From Nitrospirota bacterium (GTDB lineage Bacteria > JACPQY01), in the NCBI GenBank assembly GCA_016180645.1, contig JACPAV010000019.1:62001-126000 (forward strand): DNA of 64,000 nucleotides, given 5' to 3'. The notes beneath the pieces are model-generated. The model was given only the letters and a program-made list of their open reading frames with translations, searched no databases and was not told the origin of the DNA. Both the position numbers and the translations under genes were made by a program. Below, piece after piece: positions 10,265 through 50,841 of this stretch. Position 1 is the stretch's first letter; each line of letters opens with the position of its first letter.

Positions 10265-12064
10265 ATGCCCCTCTTCGGCTCCAAGGAAGAAAACGAACTC
10301 AAGAAGGCCGCGAAGCTCGAGCAGGACGGTCAATGGCAGCTCGCGGCCCAGGCCTTCATGAAACTCGGTCGACAGGACGACGCGGCGCGCCTCTATGCCA
10401 AATCGGGTGACGCCAAGACCGCAGCCGACATCTATCTCCGCAACGGAAACGGCGAGAAGGCCTTCTCCCTCCTGCGAACGGCCCGCAACAAAGAGGAAGG
10501 GGCCAGGCTCCTCCAGAAGCACGGGCAACGCGAATTCGCCGCCCGCCTGTTCATCGAGGCCGGACGATACATCAGCGCCGCTGAGATCTATGAATCGACG
10601 GGGCAGTTCCTCCAAGCAGCCGATCTGTTTTCCAAGGGAGACATGATTTCAGAAGCCGCGCAGTGCTACGAAAAAGCGGGGGACTTTCCCAAGGCCACGG
10701 GCATGTTCCTCAGAATCTTCCAGACGGAGCTTCATCGCCACCAGATCGAGCCGGGCTACCCCAAGGAACGCCTCGTTCCACTCGCCACCAAGTGCGCCTC
10801 CCTGAAGTACCAGATGGGGCAATTCCCCGAGGCGGCGGAAATCCTTCAACGAGTGGGAATGCTGGACAAGGCGGCGGCCATCTACGCCAAAATCGGCCAC
10901 CTGGACAAGGCCGCCAAGATCTACGAGGACGTCGGGGATTTCGCGCGCGCCGCGGACATCTACGAGAGGCTCGGCAAGAAATCCGATGCGCAATTGATCA
11001 AGGCCCGCTACTACGAGAACAAGGGCGAGATCGACCAGGCCGCCAAAATGTACTACGCCGCCGGACACTATACCGAAGCGGGCAACCTGTACTGGCGCAT
11101 GGGCCAACTCATGGAAGCCGCACAGTGCGCCGAGAAGGAAACCAACTACTCCTGGGCGGCGGACCTCTACCGCGAAGCCGGCCAGACCGAGAAGGCCCGG
11201 CAGTGCGACCTCAAAGCGGGACGCATCCCCCCTCCGGCGGCGGGACCGGCCGCTGCGGCTATACCTCAACCAAAGCCTAAACCTGTCGTCTCAAGATATC
11301 AAAAGAACGAGATTCTTGGGCGTGGCGGGATGGGAGTAGTATACCGGGCACTCGACAAGATTCTCAACCGGACGGTGGCCTTGAAGGTTCTGGCCGACGA
11401 CCTCAAAAAGGATCCGGAGGCCATCGAGCAGCTCATGCGCGAGGCTCGCGCCGCCGCCGCCCTAAACCATCCCAACGTTGTGACGATCTATGATGCAGGG
11501 CGCGAGAATGAGCAATACTTCATCGTGATGGAATACGTGGAAGGGACGCTCTTGAAGAGCCTCATCAAACGCACCGGGCCGCTGAACGTCCAGGAGTGTC
11601 TTCCCATCCTGCGCCAGCTCTGCCAGGGACTCGCCTACGCCCATGGCCGCCAGATCGTGCATCGCGATATCAAGCCGGGAAATGTCATGATTACCGCCGA
11701 TAAGACCGTGAAGATCATGGATTTCGGCCTTGCCAAGAAACTGGGACAAAGCCACACTAAGAGCACCGTCATGGGAACGCCGTATTACATGTCGCCCGAA
11801 CAGGTGGAGGGCGCGGAAACCGACCACCGAAGCGATATCTACTCCCTCGGGGCTACGCTTTTCGAAATCCTGGCGGGACGCCCCCCCTTCACCGACGGGG
11901 ATGTCCCCTACCACCACCGCCACTCCCCCCCCCCGGATCCGACGCTCTTCGCGACCGAGCTTCCGTCGGAATGGTCCGCCGTCATCCTTCGATGTCTGGA
12001 GAAAGACCCCGCGCGCCGTTTCGATTCGGCGCTGGAAATTCTGAAAGGGGTGGAGTCCATTTGA
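10265..12064 (+). CDS. TPR-repeat Ser/Thr protein kinase (Hanks type)
   Basis: 599 residues from ATG at 10265; an upstream in-frame extension is arginine/proline-rich and unlike the protein. Residues 1-330 are short alpha-helical repeats with A-x2-Y and A-A-x2-Y spacing (AAEIYESTG, AAKIYEDVG), a TPR-like solenoid. The kinase domain runs from about 345 to the end: glycine loop LGRGGMGVVYRA, catalytic lysine in VALKVL, HRDIKPGN, DFGLAKK, activation-segment GTPYYMSPEQ and the APE-side DIYSLG. No membrane helix follows, so it is probably cytosolic, with the solenoid as interaction domain. A run of 10 C in the 3' part encodes SPPP. The next gene's TTG start overlaps the TGA stop, so the two are translationally coupled. 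Confidence 0.88.
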   Translation: MPLFGSKEENELKKAAKLEQDGQWQLAAQAFMKLGRQDDAARLYAKSGDAKTAADIYLRNGNGEKAFSLLRTARNKEEGARLLQKHGQREFAARLFIEAGRYISAAEIYESTGQFLQAADLFSKGDMISEAAQCYEKAGDFPKATGMFLRIFQTELHRHQIEPGYPKERLVPLATKCASLKYQMGQFPEAAEILQRVGMLDKAAAIYAKIGHLDKAAKIYEDVGDFARAADIYERLGKKSDAQLIKARYYENKGEIDQAAKMYYAAGHYTEAGNLYWRMGQLMEAAQCAEKETNYSWAADLYREAGQTEKARQCDLKAGRIPPPAAGPAAAAIPQPKPKPVVSRYQKNEILGRGGMGVVYRALDKILNRTVALKVLADDLKKDPEAIEQLMREARAAAALNHPNVVTIYDAGRENEQYFIVMEYVEGTLLKSLIKRTGPLNVQECLPILRQLCQGLAYAHGRQIVHRDIKPGNVMITADKTVKIMDFGLAKKLGQSHTKSTVMGTPYYMSPEQVEGAETDHRSDIYSLGATLFEILAGRPPFTDGDVPYHHRHSPPPDPTLFATELPSEWSAVILRCLEKDPARRFDSALEILKGVESI

Positions 12065-19217: not shown

Positions 19218-19345
19218 TCCGATGGCCACATGAACATGATTCGATGAATCCATGACCCCATGTTTCCATGAATCCATGACCCCATGACCCGATGATAACG
19301 TGAATCCATCAAAACATGACCCCATGATTCCATGAATACATTCTA
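19218..19345 (+). repeat. Degenerate ATGAATCCATGACCCC tandem repeat tract
   Basis: About 130 bp built from variants of an 8-10 nt unit, for example CCATGAATCCATGACCCCATG at 19248 and 19268 and CATGACCCCATGATTCCATGAAT near 19316. The units are irregular and have no spacers of constant length, so this is not a CRISPR. Read in frame on the minus strand it gives meaningless MDSWGHG-type peptides. The tract ends just before the acyl-CoA dehydrogenase start. Confidence 0.75.
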
Positions 19346-42190: not shown

Positions 42191-45100
42191 TTACTTGAAC
42201 AGGCATGTCAGGCGGTAAATATCACTGTCCGAAGGGCCGGCAGGGGGGTCATCCCAGTGGGTAAACACGACGCCGAGGGCATCGCCGGAGATGTCAGGAT
42301 CCGCGTCATGGAATTCTGTTGACACCAAGAGCAAGCTGCCATCCGTACGCGCGACACACAAGCGGTCGCCGGCCCCGCAGGCGAAGATCGCGTTGCTCCC
42401 GTCAAGACTCAATCTTATGTGGAAACCAGTATCATTTCCGGAAATGTGAGTCAGTCCTGTGCCATCAGCTTTGACAACGTATCCGCCCCCAACATTCGCA
42501 CCGTTCCGTGTGAAGGCAATCAGCAAACCGTCACCCGAGATGTCAGACACCAGATCCACCTCAGGGAAACCCAACCCTCCTCTGTCCGTGAGTTGAGTCG
42601 GGCTACCTCCACTGGACGAAACGACATACACGTCCCCTCCCGAATCAAAGGCAACAAACCTTCCGTCATCGGAAATGACCGGTCTGCGCGCATCAGCCAA
42701 CTGTGAAGTCAGTTGAGTCTCGCCGGCACCCTCTCGGAAGAGGAACACCTGCCACATCCCCATCCGCGAGGAAGAGTAAACGATCCTAGACCCGTCTCCC
42801 GCGATAGATGGTGGATCCCAGTGCGAGCCGCTTCCATTCGGCGTAATCTGTACGAGGTTGGCCCCGTTTGAATCGATTGCAAACACATGGACCTCAGTTC
42901 CCACCTGTCCAAGAAAGGCCACTCGTCTCCCATCTCCAGAGATAGCGGGAGCAAACTCAGACAATGGTGTAGCTGCCAAGGCAACCTGGTTTGATCCGTC
43001 GAAATCCATGAGAAAAATGTCCTGTGATCCCTGCCGTGTTGACACGAATGCTATCTTGGCCCCGTCATTTGAAATGGATGCTGAACCATCTGACGCGGGA
43101 TCAAACGTGAGCCTCGTTCTTCCCGTGCATCCATTGACCGACCAAGCACAAGTGGCAGGCGTGTGGTCGGTATTGCCCCCAGGGTCCATGGCTCGCACGC
43201 TGAACAAGTGGGTTCCGATTGAAAGGGAGATGAACGTTTGAGGGGAAAAACACAGATAGAACCCCGAGCCGTCCAGTTCACACTCGAAGCTCGACCCCAG
43301 TTCCGTCGACAGAAAGTTGAAACTCTGTGAGGGTTGGTCCGTCGAGCTTGTTGGACAATCAAGAATGCTCGTCTCCGGGGGAACGGTATCGACCGTCCAC
43401 GTACACGTCGCGGGCGTCGTATCTACATTGCCAGCCGCATCAACCGCTTGAACCCTAAAGGCATGACTTCCGTCCGACAAAGAAGAAAATGTCTGTGGGG
43501 TCGTACACCCCGAATACCCGAGCCCATCCCATTCGCATCCGAAACCGGAATCGGGTTCCGTGGAAGCAAAGTCAAAAGTGGCGCTCGTCTGGTTCGTCAC
43601 ACTTGCAGGACATGCCGCGATGCTTGTCTCCGGGGGAACGGTATCGACCGTCCACGTGCACGTAGCTGGCGTCGGGTCGATGTTGCCTGCGCTGTCAACC
43701 GCACGGACTCGGAACACGTGCGAGCCATCGGAGAGACCGAAAAAGTTCTGTGGGGAAAAACAGGCAACAAATCCTCCGGAATCCAGTGCGCATCGAAATG
43801 AGGAGCCAATCTCCGTGGAAGAAAAGGCAAAGCTTGCACTCGTCTGGTTTGTGAGGAAAGGCGGGCATGCTGAGATGGTTGTCTCCGGAGGGGCCGTGTC
43901 CGGGCTGACCACGCTGACTGGAACAGGCAAGCTGGTCACCGAATCGGCCGATGCGGTGACGAACGTGGTTCCCGGTGACAACGCGGTGAGGACAGCCGTA
44001 CCCTGCTGGACCGTGGCGACAGAGGGGTTGGTAGAGGAAAACGTGACCTGATCCGCGCATGGGAAGGTCTGGCCGAGGCTGTTGGTGCAGGCGACTCCGA
44101 GCTGGATCTGCTGGCCCACTTGGAGGCTGAACCCGGTCGGCGGCGCGAAAATCTGCACGGCCACAATCGTGGGCGGCGGAGGCGGCGGCGGGGCGATGAT
44201 GACGTTGGCGCTACCCAAGTTCCAGAAGTAGTCAAAGCCAAAACCGCGTTCGTCGGCCGAGAGGATGTTCTCGATGAAGGCATCGACGACGGTTCCGGCG
44301 GGCAGATTGAAGTACACGAAGCGCTGAAATCCGTTGAGATCGAGGGGCACATAAAGGGTGCCATTTGCAATGGTATCTCCGAAAGGGATCGAGAGGAGTG
44401 CTGCGCTGAAATTCGTCACGCCATCCACACCTGGGACGGGGGTATTGTCGGCGAACACAAATCCGGGCTCACCGCCTAGTGATGGAATGAGGAACACTGT
44501 TGCCGGTCCCGGTACTATGGGAGGCCCGAGGACATAGGGGACGCCAGACAAGGATAGCGGTGTCAAGGAAGATACATATCCGCCAGTAGCGACATCGAAA
44601 TCGAGAAATCCCGGAAACGTGAATCCGGCGACCCCGGAGATCGGCGAGCTTGTGACCGTCACTTGCACGAAATCGCTCGTGGCACCCTCTACGGAACCGG
44701 AAACCAACGCCACCCCAGGGGTGAGGGCTTGAAGCGTGGCCGTCCCGTTTGCAACCGCCACTTGGGCCACGGCGGGATCGGTCGTCACCCAGTCGACCCG
44801 ACCCGTGCAGTCGGCTGAACTCGCATCGGAGAGGCTGCACCCCGCTTCCAGGCTGAGAGACCCCCCTACCGTCAGAGTGACGGCCGGGTCGGCGCCCGAA
44901 ATGTGAACGCCAGTGATAAACGGGGTCGAGGCGACCACGTAGAATTCAAAGGAGTTGCTGATGACGTCACTCAAAGAAGCATGGATGGAAACCGTTCCAA
45001 AGCTCGATGCATGAAACACCCCACCGCCGAGGGAAGCGGCAACGGTGGTGTTCTCCGATTGCCACTGCACGCGGCTCGTGCAATCCGTCGAGTCGCCAAA

Positions 45101-47968
45101 CGCAAAATTGCAGAACGCCGCAAATCGGATGTCCTCTCCCGGACGCAGGACAACGCTGGACAAGGGATCGACAAGCTGAACTTCGATCGAGACGAGACCG
45201 CCCTCGCCCGAATCGGCCAGCAAGCCGTTCAATTGGGCCTCCAACTGATTCCGCAGCCCCGGATCGGTCACGAGTCTATCCAAGGCGGGCAGCAGGTCCC
45301 GAATAATTTCCCGTTGAAAGCCGGGAAGATTACCGGCCTCGATTCTCCTGCGAAGAACCGTGATCTTCCCCCGAAGACCCGTCCGCCCGCCGGGCGCGAA
45401 CGCGGCATCGGGCGCTCCGTCCACGAGGGTGATCAACTCGTCCACCCCCTCCTCCAGAAAATCCATGCCGGCCTGATCCTGCTCTTTCTTCATCTCCTCG
45501 AGATCCAAAACAAGTTGGACTATCCCTTGGATGGTGTTTGTCCAACGGTCGGATGTTTCCTGATCAATAAGGCCCGCGCTGAGAGACTCCCCGATGAAAT
45601 CGACCAATCCGCGCAGGAGCGACACCGATTCGTCCAGGAAAGCCAACCCCGCCGCCAGATCGCCCTCCGAATTGGCGAGAATCGCGTCGTTCACAAGATT
45701 GATGCAGTTGATGATGTCCTCCACGATCCGATCGATCGGTGGAGGGACTTGACCGTGGTACCGCTTGCCTATCTCGCGGACAAGAACGGGGAGCCGGTCG
45801 GTAATGATGCGCTGATAGTCGGCCGGGAGCGGCAAGGGCTGGCTCTCGATGTCACCGATCACTGTCCGCGGATGGACAAACGGCGGTGGAGGCGACGGTG
45901 GCGGGGAGCCCGCCGGAGCGGTCACTACGCCGCCTCCCCCGCCCGGTGGAACCGGTTGGAACGGAGGCTGGGGAAGATACGGATTCAGGGCCTCGATCCG
46001 GGGCCTGGGATTGCCCCCACGCTGGATGATGGTAACGATCTCTTCGATGGGTGGCAGCAGTTCCGGGGGAATGGGCGGCGAGTAGGTGAAAACGTCGGGA
46101 GGGGGACTCGGAACGATCTCAATCGGCACGGGCTGGACGACGATTCGCTCCAAGGGCTGCCGGGGCGCTGCTGTCCGGATTTCAATGGGGGTCGTTCCGA
46201 TCACGGGGGGCACGGGCCTGCCAGGGAACGGAGGAACAAACCCGGATCCCGGCTGGATTCCGATGACCACGCCTCCCTCGGAAGGTCCACCTGGCTCGAA
46301 AATCAGATCGCCCGGTTCCGCTTCCGCCCCGAACTGCGGAGTGGTGCGAGTGCCGACCCTCACGACGGTTCGCGTTCCCGGCCTGCGATTCCTGACGGGG
46401 ATGGGATGAATTCTCTTGCGAGGGGTGGGGACGAAGATGCGCGTGAGCATGCTGAAGCAGTCGGCCTTCACATTGTTCGTCTCATCGCACTCCGCCACTT
46501 GATCGAGGGAATCCACGGTGACGCGATAGTGAATCAGAGTGGGGAGCGTCGGGATGCTTTGGCGGGATACGAGGGCCGATTGCCCGGGCGCGAGGCAGCC
46601 GGTGTACATCTTGGTCCCCAGTTCGACGTAATCCTTGAAGAAGCCCTCGGCGGCCACTTCAAACTTCACACGGAAATCACAAGCCGGTGCGAACCCCTTG
46701 TTCCGGATCTGGGCAAAAACCTCCACGCGCTGGCCGGGCCGGGGATTGAGCGGGCGCTGGTCGAATCGAAGGATTTGAAGGTCCGGCAGGCCCGTGCACT
46801 GGGCGGGCGGAGGTGGAAGGCCCGGCGGCCCGTCGAACACCGATTCCGTCTCGACGAGGTTGCCCCCGAGATCCTGCACCGAGGCTTGAAGAACGTTTCG
46901 GCCGGAGGTCAGAGGAACGAGCGACGACGTGGCCCCACCTCGCGTGGCCACGAAGCGATCGGAAATATCCTCGCCGTTGAGATCGACCGATAGAGTTTCC
47001 GGATCGACGCCGGACACGGGCTCCTCGAAATCAAGCTCTACGGATAGCGCGCTGTCCGTCTGGATCGAACCCGGCGCCGGAGCGGCAACCATCCGCGGTG
47101 GGGTCACGTCCAGGGTGACGCTCCCTGGCTCCGTCGATACCACATCAATGAGCTTGACCTCCACGCGAAGGTCCTTCGAAGAACCGGCCAGAGTGCGCTT
47201 GAGAGTCTCCACCAAGGACTGCTGCTCGGCGGACAGGTGTGCAGCCCCTCCAATCCGAACCTCGGGCCTGGGACCGCCTCTCACTTTGATCTTCAGCTTC
47301 GAATGGGGGGTTCCGGGGGACACAATCAAGGCATCGCGAAGATGATCAAGTGCGGTTCTTTGGACGGGTGAGAGGGCGACCCCTCCCTGCTTCTCACGGG
47401 AAAGCGCGGCGAAAGGTTTATACGAATAGACCGCATCCGGCACGGCCTGACCGGATTCATTGAGTCCGTTCCAAAGCATGGCGAGGGAAACGGAAAGCTG
47501 TCCCCGATCGTTCCGGCGTCCGCGATGGACCCTGGCTTGGACCTCGCTTGAATCATCGATCAACCGGACGGGCAAACCGAACGGATCTCCGATCTGCGCG
47601 ACTCCCACAACCACAAAACGCGTGGAGGTCTTTCCGCCGCTCTCGCCGGGATCGTCGTCATCGTCGTCTCCCCCTCGCTTGTCGACTTGGATCGCTTCTT
47701 GGGAAACCTGCACGAGGGCCAGGATGCCGGCTTCATCTTTCACGCCATCCCGGTTGGGAGAAAACGGATTGGGTTCGGCCTGCACGGAAAGGATCTTCAG
47801 CTTCCCGTCGCCCTTGTGACGGTCACCTTCGTGATCTCGCCCGGCCGCTCCGCGAGTCGACAGGGAGCTTTCCGAAACGATGCCACGAGACTCAACTGGA
47901 TCTTGAGCCGGATTCCCCCCCCCCCCCCGCGCATGAGAAACACAAAGTATCGCAACGAGTCTTTTCAC
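42191..47968 (-). CDS. Giant exported multidomain protein (FlgD-Ig, CARDB, Big_2, Cys repeats, beta-propeller)
   Basis: About 1925 residues from GTG at 47968, with SD AGAGGGGG. Signal-like KRLVAILCVSHA is followed by a Gly run encoded by 14 G. Then: FlgD-Ig-like domain (NPFSPNRDGVKDE, LWNGLNESG) near 55-190 with a DDDDDD tract at 101-106; a CARDB-like domain near 395-500 (PGQRVEVFAQIRNKG, ECDETNN); a long Pro-rich stretch; a helical region; three Big_2-like Ig domains; three 85-residue Cys repeats; and a C-terminal PD40/TolB-type propeller of about 310 residues (AFVSTRQGSQDIFLMD). Such architectures are extracellular or surface scaffolds. No sorting motif is visible at the C-terminus. A minus-strand TTGACA at 48072-48067 could serve it. 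Confidence 0.85.
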   Translation of the reverse strand: MKRLVAILCVSHARGGGGNPAQDPVESRGIVSESSLSTRGAAGRDHEGDRHKGDGKLKILSVQAEPNPFSPNRDGVKDEAGILALVQVSQEAIQVDKRGGDDDDDDPGESGGKTSTRFVVVGVAQIGDPFGLPVRLIDDSSEVQARVHRGRRNDRGQLSVSLAMLWNGLNESGQAVPDAVYSYKPFAALSREKQGGVALSPVQRTALDHLRDALIVSPGTPHSKLKIKVRGGPRPEVRIGGAAHLSAEQQSLVETLKRTLAGSSKDLRVEVKLIDVVSTEPGSVTLDVTPPRMVAAPAPGSIQTDSALSVELDFEEPVSGVDPETLSVDLNGEDISDRFVATRGGATSSLVPLTSGRNVLQASVQDLGGNLVETESVFDGPPGLPPPPAQCTGLPDLQILRFDQRPLNPRPGQRVEVFAQIRNKGFAPACDFRVKFEVAAEGFFKDYVELGTKMYTGCLAPGQSALVSRQSIPTLPTLIHYRVTVDSLDQVAECDETNNVKADCFSMLTRIFVPTPRKRIHPIPVRNRRPGTRTVVRVGTRTTPQFGAEAEPGDLIFEPGGPSEGGVVIGIQPGSGFVPPFPGRPVPPVIGTTPIEIRTAAPRQPLERIVVQPVPIEIVPSPPPDVFTYSPPIPPELLPPIEEIVTIIQRGGNPRPRIEALNPYLPQPPFQPVPPGGGGGVVTAPAGSPPPSPPPPFVHPRTVIGDIESQPLPLPADYQRIITDRLPVLVREIGKRYHGQVPPPIDRIVEDIINCINLVNDAILANSEGDLAAGLAFLDESVSLLRGLVDFIGESLSAGLIDQETSDRWTNTIQGIVQLVLDLEEMKKEQDQAGMDFLEEGVDELITLVDGAPDAAFAPGGRTGLRGKITVLRRRIEAGNLPGFQREIIRDLLPALDRLVTDPGLRNQLEAQLNGLLADSGEGGLVSIEVQLVDPLSSVVLRPGEDIRFAAFCNFAFGDSTDCTSRVQWQSENTTVAASLGGGVFHASSFGTVSIHASLSDVISNSFEFYVVASTPFITGVHISGADPAVTLTVGGSLSLEAGCSLSDASSADCTGRVDWVTTDPAVAQVAVANGTATLQALTPGVALVSGSVEGATSDFVQVTVTSSPISGVAGFTFPGFLDFDVATGGYVSSLTPLSLSGVPYVLGPPIVPGPATVFLIPSLGGEPGFVFADNTPVPGVDGVTNFSAALLSIPFGDTIANGTLYVPLDLNGFQRFVYFNLPAGTVVDAFIENILSADERGFGFDYFWNLGSANVIIAPPPPPPPTIVAVQIFAPPTGFSLQVGQQIQLGVACTNSLGQTFPCADQVTFSSTNPSVATVQQGTAVLTALSPGTTFVTASADSVTSLPVPVSVVSPDTAPPETTISACPPFLTNQTSASFAFSSTEIGSSFRCALDSGGFVACFSPQNFFGLSDGSHVFRVRAVDSAGNIDPTPATCTWTVDTVPPETSIAACPASVTNQTSATFDFASTEPDSGFGCEWDGLGYSGCTTPQTFSSLSDGSHAFRVQAVDAAGNVDTTPATCTWTVDTVPPETSILDCPTSSTDQPSQSFNFLSTELGSSFECELDGSGFYLCFSPQTFISLSIGTHLFSVRAMDPGGNTDHTPATCAWSVNGCTGRTRLTFDPASDGSASISNDGAKIAFVSTRQGSQDIFLMDFDGSNQVALAATPLSEFAPAISGDGRRVAFLGQVGTEVHVFAIDSNGANLVQITPNGSGSHWDPPSIAGDGSRIVYSSSRMGMWQVFLFREGAGETQLTSQLADARRPVISDDGRFVAFDSGGDVYVVSSSGGSPTQLTDRGGLGFPEVDLVSDISGDGLLIAFTRNGANVGGGYVVKADGTGLTHISGNDTGFHIRLSLDGSNAIFACGAGDRLCVARTDGSLLLVSTEFHDADPDISGDALGVVFTHWDDPPAGPSDSDIYRLTCLFK
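43133..43891 (-). repeat. Three tandem ~85-codon repeats inside the giant gene
   Basis: Repeats of 85, 85 and 83 residues (43891-43637, 43636-43382, 43381-43133), each starting PPET and containing four cysteines in the order CP, C, C, C plus SPQ/TPQ-x-F, LSDGSHxF, AGN and TPATCTW. Similarity extends to the DNA, which suggests recent duplication. They resemble the Ig-like repeats of other bacterial surface proteins. Confidence 0.8.
47915..47928 (-). repeat. 14-nt homopolymeric G tract in the 5' coding region
   Basis: Fourteen consecutive C on the plus strand, so G on the coding strand, encode the Gly run just after the signal region. Only this reading frame stays open: a shift of one base either way meets a stop within about 40 codons. 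Runs of this length slip readily. Confidence 0.85.
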
Positions 47969-48149
47969 CGCACACCCCCTCTGGAACGCATACGCCACAT
48001 CCTCATTTTGGGGTCCTTACCGCACCCTCCGATCACTTCCGCACACGTATCGCGCCTGGATGCACATGTCAAGCATGATCGTCCTCGAGTTTACTGATTC
48101 TCCCTCGTGCCCAACGGGGCGTGAGCATTCGGTCTGCGACCGTCTCATT

Positions 48150-48188
48150 GAGGCTAAACCTCGATAGCGGCTATCGAGGTTTAGCCTC
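48150..48188. repeat. 18-bp perfect palindrome
   Basis: Perfect inverted repeat 48150-48167 / 48171-48188 (GAGGCTAAACCTCGATAG and its complement) with loop CGG. It lies 3' of the broken regulator and 5' of the giant gene. No U-run follows on either strand and there is no GTAG head, so terminator or repeat nature is open. The rest of the 47969-48246 gap shows nothing else convincing. Confidence 0.7.
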
Positions 48189-48246: not shown

Positions 48247-48995
48247 TCACCCCAGGTTGAACTTCGCGAGCCTGGATCTCAACTTGGACCGCGTGAGGCC
48301 GAGGAGCTTCGCGGCCTCGCTCTGATTGCCGCCGCTCATTTCCAAGGCGCGCTCGATCATCTGCTTTTCGACCGTGTCAATCGGCACGCCCCGTGAAATC
48401 CAATCGCCGACGTCCATCGCTCCACCCGCCTTTTCACCGGATGCGTCCCCAAGTCGCAGTTCCGCCTCCGTGAGGTACTCGCCGGAACAGAGGATCACCG
48501 CGCGCTCGATGACGTTCTCCAGTTCGCGAACATTCCCCGGCCAGGAGTAGGCCTCCAATCGGCGCCGCGCACCATCCGTCAGGCCGCGAATCTTTCTTCC
48601 CACCACTCCGGCATGGTGCTTCAGGAACAAATCCGCCAGAAGGCCGACGTCGCCTTTCCGCTCGCGCAATGGCGGGAGATGAACGGGAAACACGCTCAGT
48701 AGTCATACGCCCCCTCACGAACGGCCTCAACGGCCGACTCCACCGTACCGAACGCCGTCAGCACGATCACCGGCACGCCCCCACCCTTCTCTCGCACCGC
48801 CTTGAGCACCCCCAATCCATCCCCATCTCCCAGTTTCAAATCGGTCAGGATCACATCGGCTGCCTCCAACTTGCCGAGCGCCTCGGAAACAGAACCCGTA
48901 GGAATCGCCTCATACTTCCGGCTCCGCAGCAGCACGCAAAGCACGTCCCTCAGCCCGGTTTCATCCTCAACCACGAGCACCGTCCCCCGGCTCAT
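48247..48995 (-). pseudogene. NtrC-type response regulator, broken by internal deletion
   Basis: Two open pieces of one gene. Piece 1 (48995-48696): receiver domain VLVVEDETGLRDVL, VILTDLKLGDGDG (phospho-Asp), VIVLTAFGT and ending GAYDY then TGA. Piece 2 (48693-48247): begins VFPVHLPPLRERKGD, the C-terminal part of the sigma54 AAA+ domain, then a Fis-type helix-turn-helix NQSEAAKLLGLTRSKL. Reading across the junction in the +1 frame gives LSVFPVHLPP, the family sequence, so the receiver frame was joined out of frame to the AAA+ end. Roughly 190-200 residues including Walker A, GAFTGA and Walker B are missing. Loss is real or an assembly collapse. The partner kinase upstream is intact and overlaps the receiver start by 4 nt. 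Confidence 0.82.
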
Positions 48996-50239
48996 GCCTC
49001 CTCCGGTAGTACGATCTTGAACGCGGCCCCGCCGCCCTCCCTCTCCCCCACGTCCAATGTTCCTCCGTGAACGTCCACAATCTGCTTCACCACCGAGAGG
49101 CCCAACCCCGATCCCTTGGCTTTCGTCGTGAAGAACGGCTCGAGGATCTTTCGGCGAAGTTCAATCGACACGCCCGGACCATTGTCATTCACCTCCAGCG
49201 CAACAGCGGATGGCCCGACGGGCATTACCTTGATCCACACCCGGCCGCCCACGGCGACGGCTTGCCTCGCGTTCTGGACGAGATTCAGCAGCGCCTCGAA
49301 TAATTGATCGGCATCGGCTCTCACGCGGTGGGGACGGCCGCCGGTTTCACAATCAAGCTTCACGCCACTGGGAGCGAACTCCATCCGCACCTGATTCTCG
49401 ACACGGCGGACGATCTCCCCCAAGTCAACCTCTCTCAGATTCGGCTCCCGCGGCCTCGCGAAGCGAAGGTAGTCGACGACCAGGCGATCCAATCGGTCCA
49501 CCTCGCCTCGGATGGTATCGCTCATGCGGGTCCGATCCGGAGCGGACAGGTCATCGCGCCCCAAGAGACCCGCCGCTCCCCGAATAGCGCCGAGCGGGTT
49601 CTTGATCTCATGAGCCACAACCGCGGAGAAATGCCCCAGTGCCGCCCAGCGCTCCTTCTCCTGCATCCGCAGTTCTATTTCTCTTTCCCGGATTTTCCCC
49701 GCCAGGGAGCCGCTCCCGTAGGAGACGAGCAGCATGAACGCCAGGAGGGACACAGGGATAAACACTACGTAAGGCAACTGGAGGTAAAGGCCCGGATCCT
49801 CCCGGTGGGAGAAAAGCGGCACGTGCGGGAGCGCACCCTCATATTCCAGAAGTCCCATGGCCAGCAGGAGCAAGCCCGCCAGAACGCTCATCAACACACT
49901 TGTCTTGAAGTCCACGTGAACGCTCGATCCCACGGCCAGGATGGCGAAAAGCGGCAGGAACGGGCTCTGCACCCCACTCGTCCAGTGAATCGCCACGATA
50001 AGGAGGAACACGTTCAGCACAATGCCAAGTAGAACGATCCCGCCGACATGGGTGGACCTCCGATAGAGGCGTCTACCGACCAGATTCGCGGGGAGCAGAA
50101 CGGCGCCCAAAACAAGAAACGCGAGGCCGGTTCGGATGCTGAAGAATCCCAAGAGCCGCATCAGGGGATACAGAACCCCAATGCCTACGGCCGTCACTTC
50201 ACCGTAGCGCAGGCCCCAGATAAAGCGCTCGCGGGTCAT
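48992..50239 (-). CDS. NtrB-like sensor histidine kinase
   Basis: 415 residues from ATG at 50239. About six hydrophobic helices in the first 200 residues (GVLYPLMRLLGFFSI, GIVLLGIVLNVFLLIVAIHW, VFIPVSLLAFMLLV) form a sensor without an extracytoplasmic domain. HisKA H-box VVAHEIKNPLGAIRGA, N-box LVQNARQAV, G1 NDNGPGVS and G2 GSGLGLSVVKQI follow. It should phosphorylate the sigma54 regulator encoded next, whose ATG overlaps this stop. As that regulator lacks its ATPase core, the kinase may now act on another protein or on a truncated receiver. Confidence 0.88.
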   Translation of the reverse strand: MTRERFIWGLRYGEVTAVGIGVLYPLMRLLGFFSIRTGLAFLVLGAVLLPANLVGRRLYRRSTHVGGIVLLGIVLNVFLLIVAIHWTSGVQSPFLPLFAILAVGSSVHVDFKTSVLMSVLAGLLLLAMGLLEYEGALPHVPLFSHREDPGLYLQLPYVVFIPVSLLAFMLLVSYGSGSLAGKIREREIELRMQEKERWAALGHFSAVVAHEIKNPLGAIRGAAGLLGRDDLSAPDRTRMSDTIRGEVDRLDRLVVDYLRFARPREPNLREVDLGEIVRRVENQVRMEFAPSGVKLDCETGGRPHRVRADADQLFEALLNLVQNARQAVAVGGRVWIKVMPVGPSAVALEVNDNGPGVSIELRRKILEPFFTTKAKGSGLGLSVVKQIVDVHGGTLDVGEREGGGAAFKIVLPEEA

Positions 50240-50298
50240 GAACCCCGCTACCTCGCCGGGGCCTGCCTGCCCGACGGGCGCCGCGCGCTGGCGCGTAT

Positions 50299-50841
50299 CT
50301 ACCACTTCTTCGGCTCGGTTCCCCCTCGCTTCTGGGCGGCGAGCGCCATGGCGAAGAGGAGATCCGAGAGCCGATTCAGATACCGGATGGCCAGAGCCGG
50401 CACAGGTTCTTTGCGGGACAACTCCACCACGCGTCGCTCCGCGCGTCGGCACACCGTTCTGGCCACGTGCAGTGCGGCCGATTCCGGCGTACCCCCCGGC
50501 AGCACGAAGCTCTTGAGAGGTCCAACTTCCGCCATGCAGCGATCAATCGATCCTTCAAACCGTCCGATCCGGTCCGGCGGGATCGCCGTCTTCTCTTTCA
50601 CTCGATGCTTCCCGTACGCGGGGTCGGCGAGCTGTGCCTGGATCGCGAAGAGGTCGTTCTGCACATCGCTAAGATCCGCCCTCAACTCAGCGTCGGCGAG
50701 CTGCGTCAGCATCCAGCCGAGTACAGAATTCAATTCGTCCACCTCCCCGTAAGCTTCCACGCGCAGCGAGTATTTCTTCACCCGCTTCCCGCCCATGAGC
50801 GACGTTTCGCCTTCATCCCCTTTCCGCGTGTAAATCTTCAC
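50299..50841 (-). CDS. Cob(I)yrinic acid a,c-diamide adenosyltransferase, PduO type
   Basis: 180 residues. ATP-binding N-terminus YTRKGDEGETSLMGGKRV, VDELNSVLGW, RTVCRRAERRVV and YLNRLSDLLFAMA match the PduO-type family. It adenosylates cob(I)alamin to coenzyme B12. It is 59 nt upstream of the histidine kinase and 24 nt after the ferritin-like gene; no other cobalamin gene or B12 riboswitch was seen nearby. Confidence 0.92.
   Translation of the reverse strand: MKIYTRKGDEGETSLMGGKRVKKYSLRVEAYGEVDELNSVLGWMLTQLADAELRADLSDVQNDLFAIQAQLADPAYGKHRVKEKTAIPPDRIGRFEGSIDRCMAEVGPLKSFVLPGGTPESAALHVARTVCRRAERRVVELSRKEPVPALAIRYLNRLSDLLFAMALAAQKRGGTEPKKW

Follow-up and report, generated by a model that had tools for sequence, protein, structure and literature searches.

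G tracts longer than seven nucleotides are hypermutable, changing at 1e-5 to 1e-2 per division (PMC4235727). In the capsule and LOS genes of Campylobacter jejuni, a coding-strand G run lies in frame and a change of one unit truncates the product. Campylobacter poly-G tracts have a modal length of 9-10, and in a large set of draft genomes the share of phase-variable tracts in the ON state is reported to lie nearer to neutral drift (PMC6321876). The haemoglobin receptors hmbR and hpuAB of Neisseria meningitidis are surface proteins under poly-G ON/OFF control (PMC4235727). In the GC-rich genome of Bordetella, poly-C/G tracts occur above chance in cell-envelope genes that are predicted to be phase variable (sphB2, tcfA, bapC, fimX promoter; PMC1891110), and their polymorphism was seen by strain comparison.

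Here we describe a run of 14 G near the 5' end of a gene for a large, probably secreted protein. The window, a 64-kb stretch of DNA (contig C19, positions 62001-126000), belongs to a 4.72-Mb genome in 65 contigs, one of two genomes from its phylum among those compared. We put the chances at about even that this is a translational phase-variation (contingency) locus, switching by slippage, with its consensus in the ON state. The locus is mechanistically of a known kind (PMC4235727, PMC6321876, PMC1891110); what is new is the lineage in which this candidate member occurs.

The likenesses are of three sorts. As in C. jejuni, a coding-strand G run lies in frame and a change of one unit truncates the product. 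As with hmbR and hpuAB, the candidate would be a surface protein under poly-G control, although the protein families are other than that of the window gene. As in Bordetella, the genome is GC-rich and a poly-C/G run above chance lies in a putative cell-envelope gene. The usual C. jejuni tract has 9-10 G, whereas this one has 14, in a GC-rich genome with MutS and MutL. Moreover, unlike the C. jejuni tracts, G runs here lie mostly in ordinary genes, in frame, and this locus is known from one consensus length; in contrast to the strain comparisons in Bordetella, a single assembly provides it.

The tract itself is unambiguous in the assembly. A first-pass annotation had placed a 14-G homopolymer just after the signal region of a gene for a giant surface protein. 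Indeed, the plus strand reads exactly 14 C, the minus strand is the coding strand, and the run follows a short hydrophobic leader predicted by inspection (Table 1). No other homopolymer in the window is as long (the next has 10 nucleotides, at 11925-11934, then 9), and it is also the longest coding G tract in the genome. Its length is far above the threshold of the hypermutable range (>7 G; PMC4235727), and since the run sits in frame close to the start of the gene, a gain or loss of one base leads to early truncation. When the tract length was changed in silico, 8, 11, 14 and 17 G kept the leader in frame with the body. The 14-G form gives 1,925 residues, the 13-G form 56 and the 15-G form 25, so the earlier statement was right that the frame closes within some 40 codons once a single base is gained or lost. 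The consensus sequence is in the ON register, because 14 G keeps the leader joined to the body.

Table 1. Features of the locus and long G runs elsewhere in the genome. Positions without a prefix are those of the window.
Feature	Position	Strand	Remarks
CDS, 1925-aa predicted secreted protein	42191..47968	-	CARDB, Big_2, Big_13, C-terminal PD40 repeats; open at 14 G
14-G tract (14 C on +)	47915..47928	-	Coding; starts 13 codons plus 1 base into gene
Short hydrophobic leader MKRLVAILCVSHA	47930..47968	-	Probable export signal; sequence inspection
Shine-Dalgarno-like AGGGGGTG	47973..47980	-	4 nt before GTG 47968; inspection
39-nt perfect palindrome (2 x 19, central G)	48150..48188	.	Between upstream regulator gene and 14-G gene
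C33 13-G tract	L042 4001-4013	-	Coding; after AAGGAGGTG-AAACA-GTG, leader MKHSGASGIKPWILAAVIGFVGLVDVGGIVSA-GGGG
C4 12-nt run			Coding
C17 12-nt run	C17:48271-48282 (L039 4001-4012)		Coding; in lpxA
C49 12-nt run			Coding
C7 14-nt run			Non-coding
C16 33-nt run	L036:4028-4060		Non-coding; intergenic repeat
C8 12-nt run			Non-coding

The open reading frame from its first GTG spans 42191-47998 on the minus strand (1,935 aa, with the stop at 42191). The GTG at 47968 appears the better start because the frame is open, a Shine-Dalgarno-like motif lies 4 nt upstream and the leader lies downstream. From there the protein would begin V(M)KRLVAILCVSHA-RGGGG-NPAQDP.... A crude gene caller puts the start downstream of the tract, because the first 60 codons carry weak coding signal. 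Pfam assigns to the 1,925-aa protein a CARDB domain (residues 405-512), Big_2 and Big_13 repeats and PD40 beta-propeller repeats. This domain set suggests a secreted, adhesin-like architecture, with export predicted from the short leader. The cell-surface location in the first-pass label is what leader and domains together would predict. No anchor was identified among the leader and the CARDB, Big and PD40 domains. For the N-terminal half, a search gave no true orthologue. The paralogue L195, which shares the C-terminal repeats and has a clear lipoprotein leader, has no G tract; it is the sole paralogue with a clearly read N-terminus.

Local composition is not expected to generate such a run by chance. 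From the base-step frequencies of the window (P(C|C)=0.33, P(G|G)=0.27) we estimate that 64 kb would hold ~0.01 runs of 14 or more and a 4.7-Mb genome ~0.6, and on the former figure we ruled out this source. Runs of 8 or longer exceed expectation only mildly in the window (20 matches against 11.1 +/- 4.4 expected). The earlier remark that the tract is hard to explain by composition is weakened by a genome rich in in-frame runs of 9 to 11 G within ordinary genes.

That background raises the possibility of an incidental by-product. Long G runs may build up wherever Gly-Gly-Gly or Pro-Pro-Pro is tolerated, driven by mutation pressure and by GGG/CCC codon use, and the 14-G run would then be the tail of the distribution, at a site where the protein tolerates a variable Gly linker; slippage could occur there, yet no switch would have been selected. 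We consider this possible, if somewhat unlikely. The counts speak for it. Over both strands, and with the window tract included, this genome has 151, 79, 110, 21, 4, 1 and 2 runs of exactly 8, 9, 10, 11, 12, 13 and 14 nucleotides, plus one 33-G run. Its sister, from another genus of the same phylum, has 200, 139, 185, 37, 1, 5 and 0, plus one of 15. The 110 and 185 runs of exactly 10 compare with 0-11 across 58 other genomes. Three other genomes show a steep fall with length (180/32/9, 100/22/7 and 131/23/5 at lengths 8/9/10), whereas the two genomes of this phylum both rise to a mode at 10 and fall off abruptly at 11. A genome-wide mode is a feature shared with C. jejuni, at 9-10 there (PMC6321876). 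This phylum-wide excess of 10-G runs is a less expected result than the switch candidate, and deserves separate study. One further genome (1.8 Mb) has two runs of 8 and three of 9, yet 11 of 10, the profile expected for phase-variable poly-G loci.

The genes that carry the runs fit the same account. We took ~0.98 Mb of the genome, mostly surrounding G runs, and called genes there; the loci were picked for holding runs, so that their run densities do not represent the genome as a whole. Runs of at least 9 are mostly intragenic and spread evenly along gene length, with G on the coding strand in 88 cases and C in 41. Apparent housekeeping genes are among the carriers, for example a seryl-tRNA synthetase look-alike (by inspection). 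Where coding signal is clear on both sides, 59 of the 10-G runs are in frame and one is out, and all nine 11-G runs are in frame. Assembled run lengths up to 11 are therefore reliable in this assembly, and the 59:1 ratio also led us to reject the idea that sequencing had cut longer runs down to 10. It follows as well that a long G tract alone is weak evidence for phase variation here. A 10-G run in this genome is usually no neutral switch, and we counted the difference from the near-neutral ON share in Campylobacter against the switch reading.

Mismatch repair bears on the question in two ways. MutS and MutL homologues were both found in this genome, which rules out their loss as the source of the long G runs; their presence also weighs against a switch, since they are expected to reduce slippage. 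In the sister genome, which is 84% complete, the search gave no MutS.

A broader reading, which we hold to be unlikely, is that this little-known phylum has a genome-wide G-run equilibrium at 10 that extends into essential in-frame genes, with the 14-G tract and a second, OFF-register gene on C33 as surface-protein switches at its exaggerated end. If so, the lineage would have unusual replication or repair, or would tolerate poly-G slippage at transcription or translation.

Eight runs in the genome reach at least 12 nucleotides, three of them non-coding. The only coding tracts of at least 13, the window tract and that of C33, both lie at the leader/mature junction of predicted secreted proteins. 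By a crude leader count, leader zones occupy 0.27% of strand positions, and two of the six non-repeat runs of at least 12 fall inside them (p ~1e-4, computed after the pattern was seen). Such a position for the two longest coding tracts argues against a by-product, as does the rarity of coding runs of at least 12 (five, two of them out of frame). A general habit of Gly linkers after leaders is a weak reason for the position of the tract: Gly or Pro runs follow 5 of 117 leaders. In the sister genome, the six runs of at least 13 lie in or between other genes, none at a leader junction. The sister also has a HAD-type phosphatase gene beside a NeuB-like gene (L152:3899-4435) whose register appears to change at a 12-G run close to the 3' end of the gene.

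The C33 gene has a strong Shine-Dalgarno sequence (AAGGAGGTG), a classical leader (MKHSGASGIKPWILAAVIGFVGLVDVGGIVSA) and an intact body of ~680 codons, encoding a ~700-residue BNR-like protein. At 13 G its frame ends after 47 residues; the register of the body is reached at 12 or 15 G. Because the rest of the gene shows no decay, it looks like the OFF allele of a reversible switch. A third case is found on C49, where a gene for a 1,156-aa lipoprotein-like protein carries an in-frame 10-G run soon after the lipobox and a second in-frame run, of 12 G, further on.

Among the non-coding runs, the 33-G run is flanked by interrupted G runs and may be an assembly artefact; it belongs to an intergenic repeat type shared with the 14-G run of C7 and an 11-G run of C50. 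We rejected the window tract as part of this repeat, since the flanks are absent.

The 12-G run of C17 tells a different story. It splits lpxA (L039:3704-4479), which adjoins a fabZ-like gene, into pieces of 103 and 155 codons (names by inspection); the gene is broken solely at the run and otherwise intact. lpxA is normally required for lipid A. A selected switch is unlikely here; the break suggests wrong run lengths, genuine slippage that serves no function, or slippage during expression. It also makes the lengths of long runs in this assembly uncertain, and the OFF state of the C33 gene could have the same cause.

Two further explanations for the 14-G tract start from this break. Assembled runs of at least 12 may simply be wrong, the true tract being shorter or longer and its ON/OFF register unreadable from the assembly. 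The split lpxA and the 33-G run would fit, and Illumina errors are frequent in G/C runs of at least 8 (PMC4235727). We nevertheless think this unlikely: the in-frame record of the 10-G and 11-G runs vouches for lengths up to 11, and the leader and body of the window gene are in frame at 14 G. Alternatively, transcriptional or ribosomal slippage on poly-G would let a single DNA length give rise to mixed messages or frames and would rescue the apparently broken lpxA, intact as it is save at the run. Polymerase slippage on Buchnera poly(A) tracts has been reported to give mixed mRNAs (discussed in PMC2831843), but the analogy is drawn from A/T tracts, and we regard this explanation as very unlikely.

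Our preferred reading is a phase-variable switch at the window gene. Slipped-strand mispairing in replication would add or remove G in the tract. At 8, 11, 14 or 17 G, the export leader would be fused to the 1,925-residue protein body (ON); at other lengths translation would end at about 23-57 residues and no secreted protein would be made (OFF). We infer slippage of the tract in the living population, display of the product at the cell surface and selection for switching. The first-pass annotation had proposed phase variation, and much agrees with it: the length, the G on the coding strand, the leader/mature junction, truncation by one base either way, a large predicted secreted repeat-domain protein and the OFF-register parallel on C33. 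The proposal is tempered by the background of G runs, by the tract-less L195 and sister leaders, and by the lpxA break. If it is true, giant secreted proteins are subject to poly-G phase variation in a phylum that is little known and has mismatch repair genes, in a setting far from the host-adapted pathogens that are its usual study subjects. The lineage-wide excess of in-frame 10-G runs in ordinary genes would then also offer a natural experiment on the real danger of long G runs, and on whether phase variation can be predicted from tract length alone.

The neighbourhood of the gene has features of its own. The palindrome upstream is perhaps a putative hairpin closing the upstream transcription unit; a second full copy is absent from the 0.98 Mb examined. 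Beyond it lies an NtrC-type response regulator gene (48247-48995) with a receiver domain (48696-48995) and, at 48247-48693, an AAA lid and a Fis-type HTH. It lacks the central sigma-54 AAA+ core, through an internal deletion or a misassembly, and is preceded by a histidine kinase gene (48992-50452). Elsewhere in the window, at 19235-19341, is an imperfect tandem array of CATGAATC-like 8-mers with a 32-nt period.
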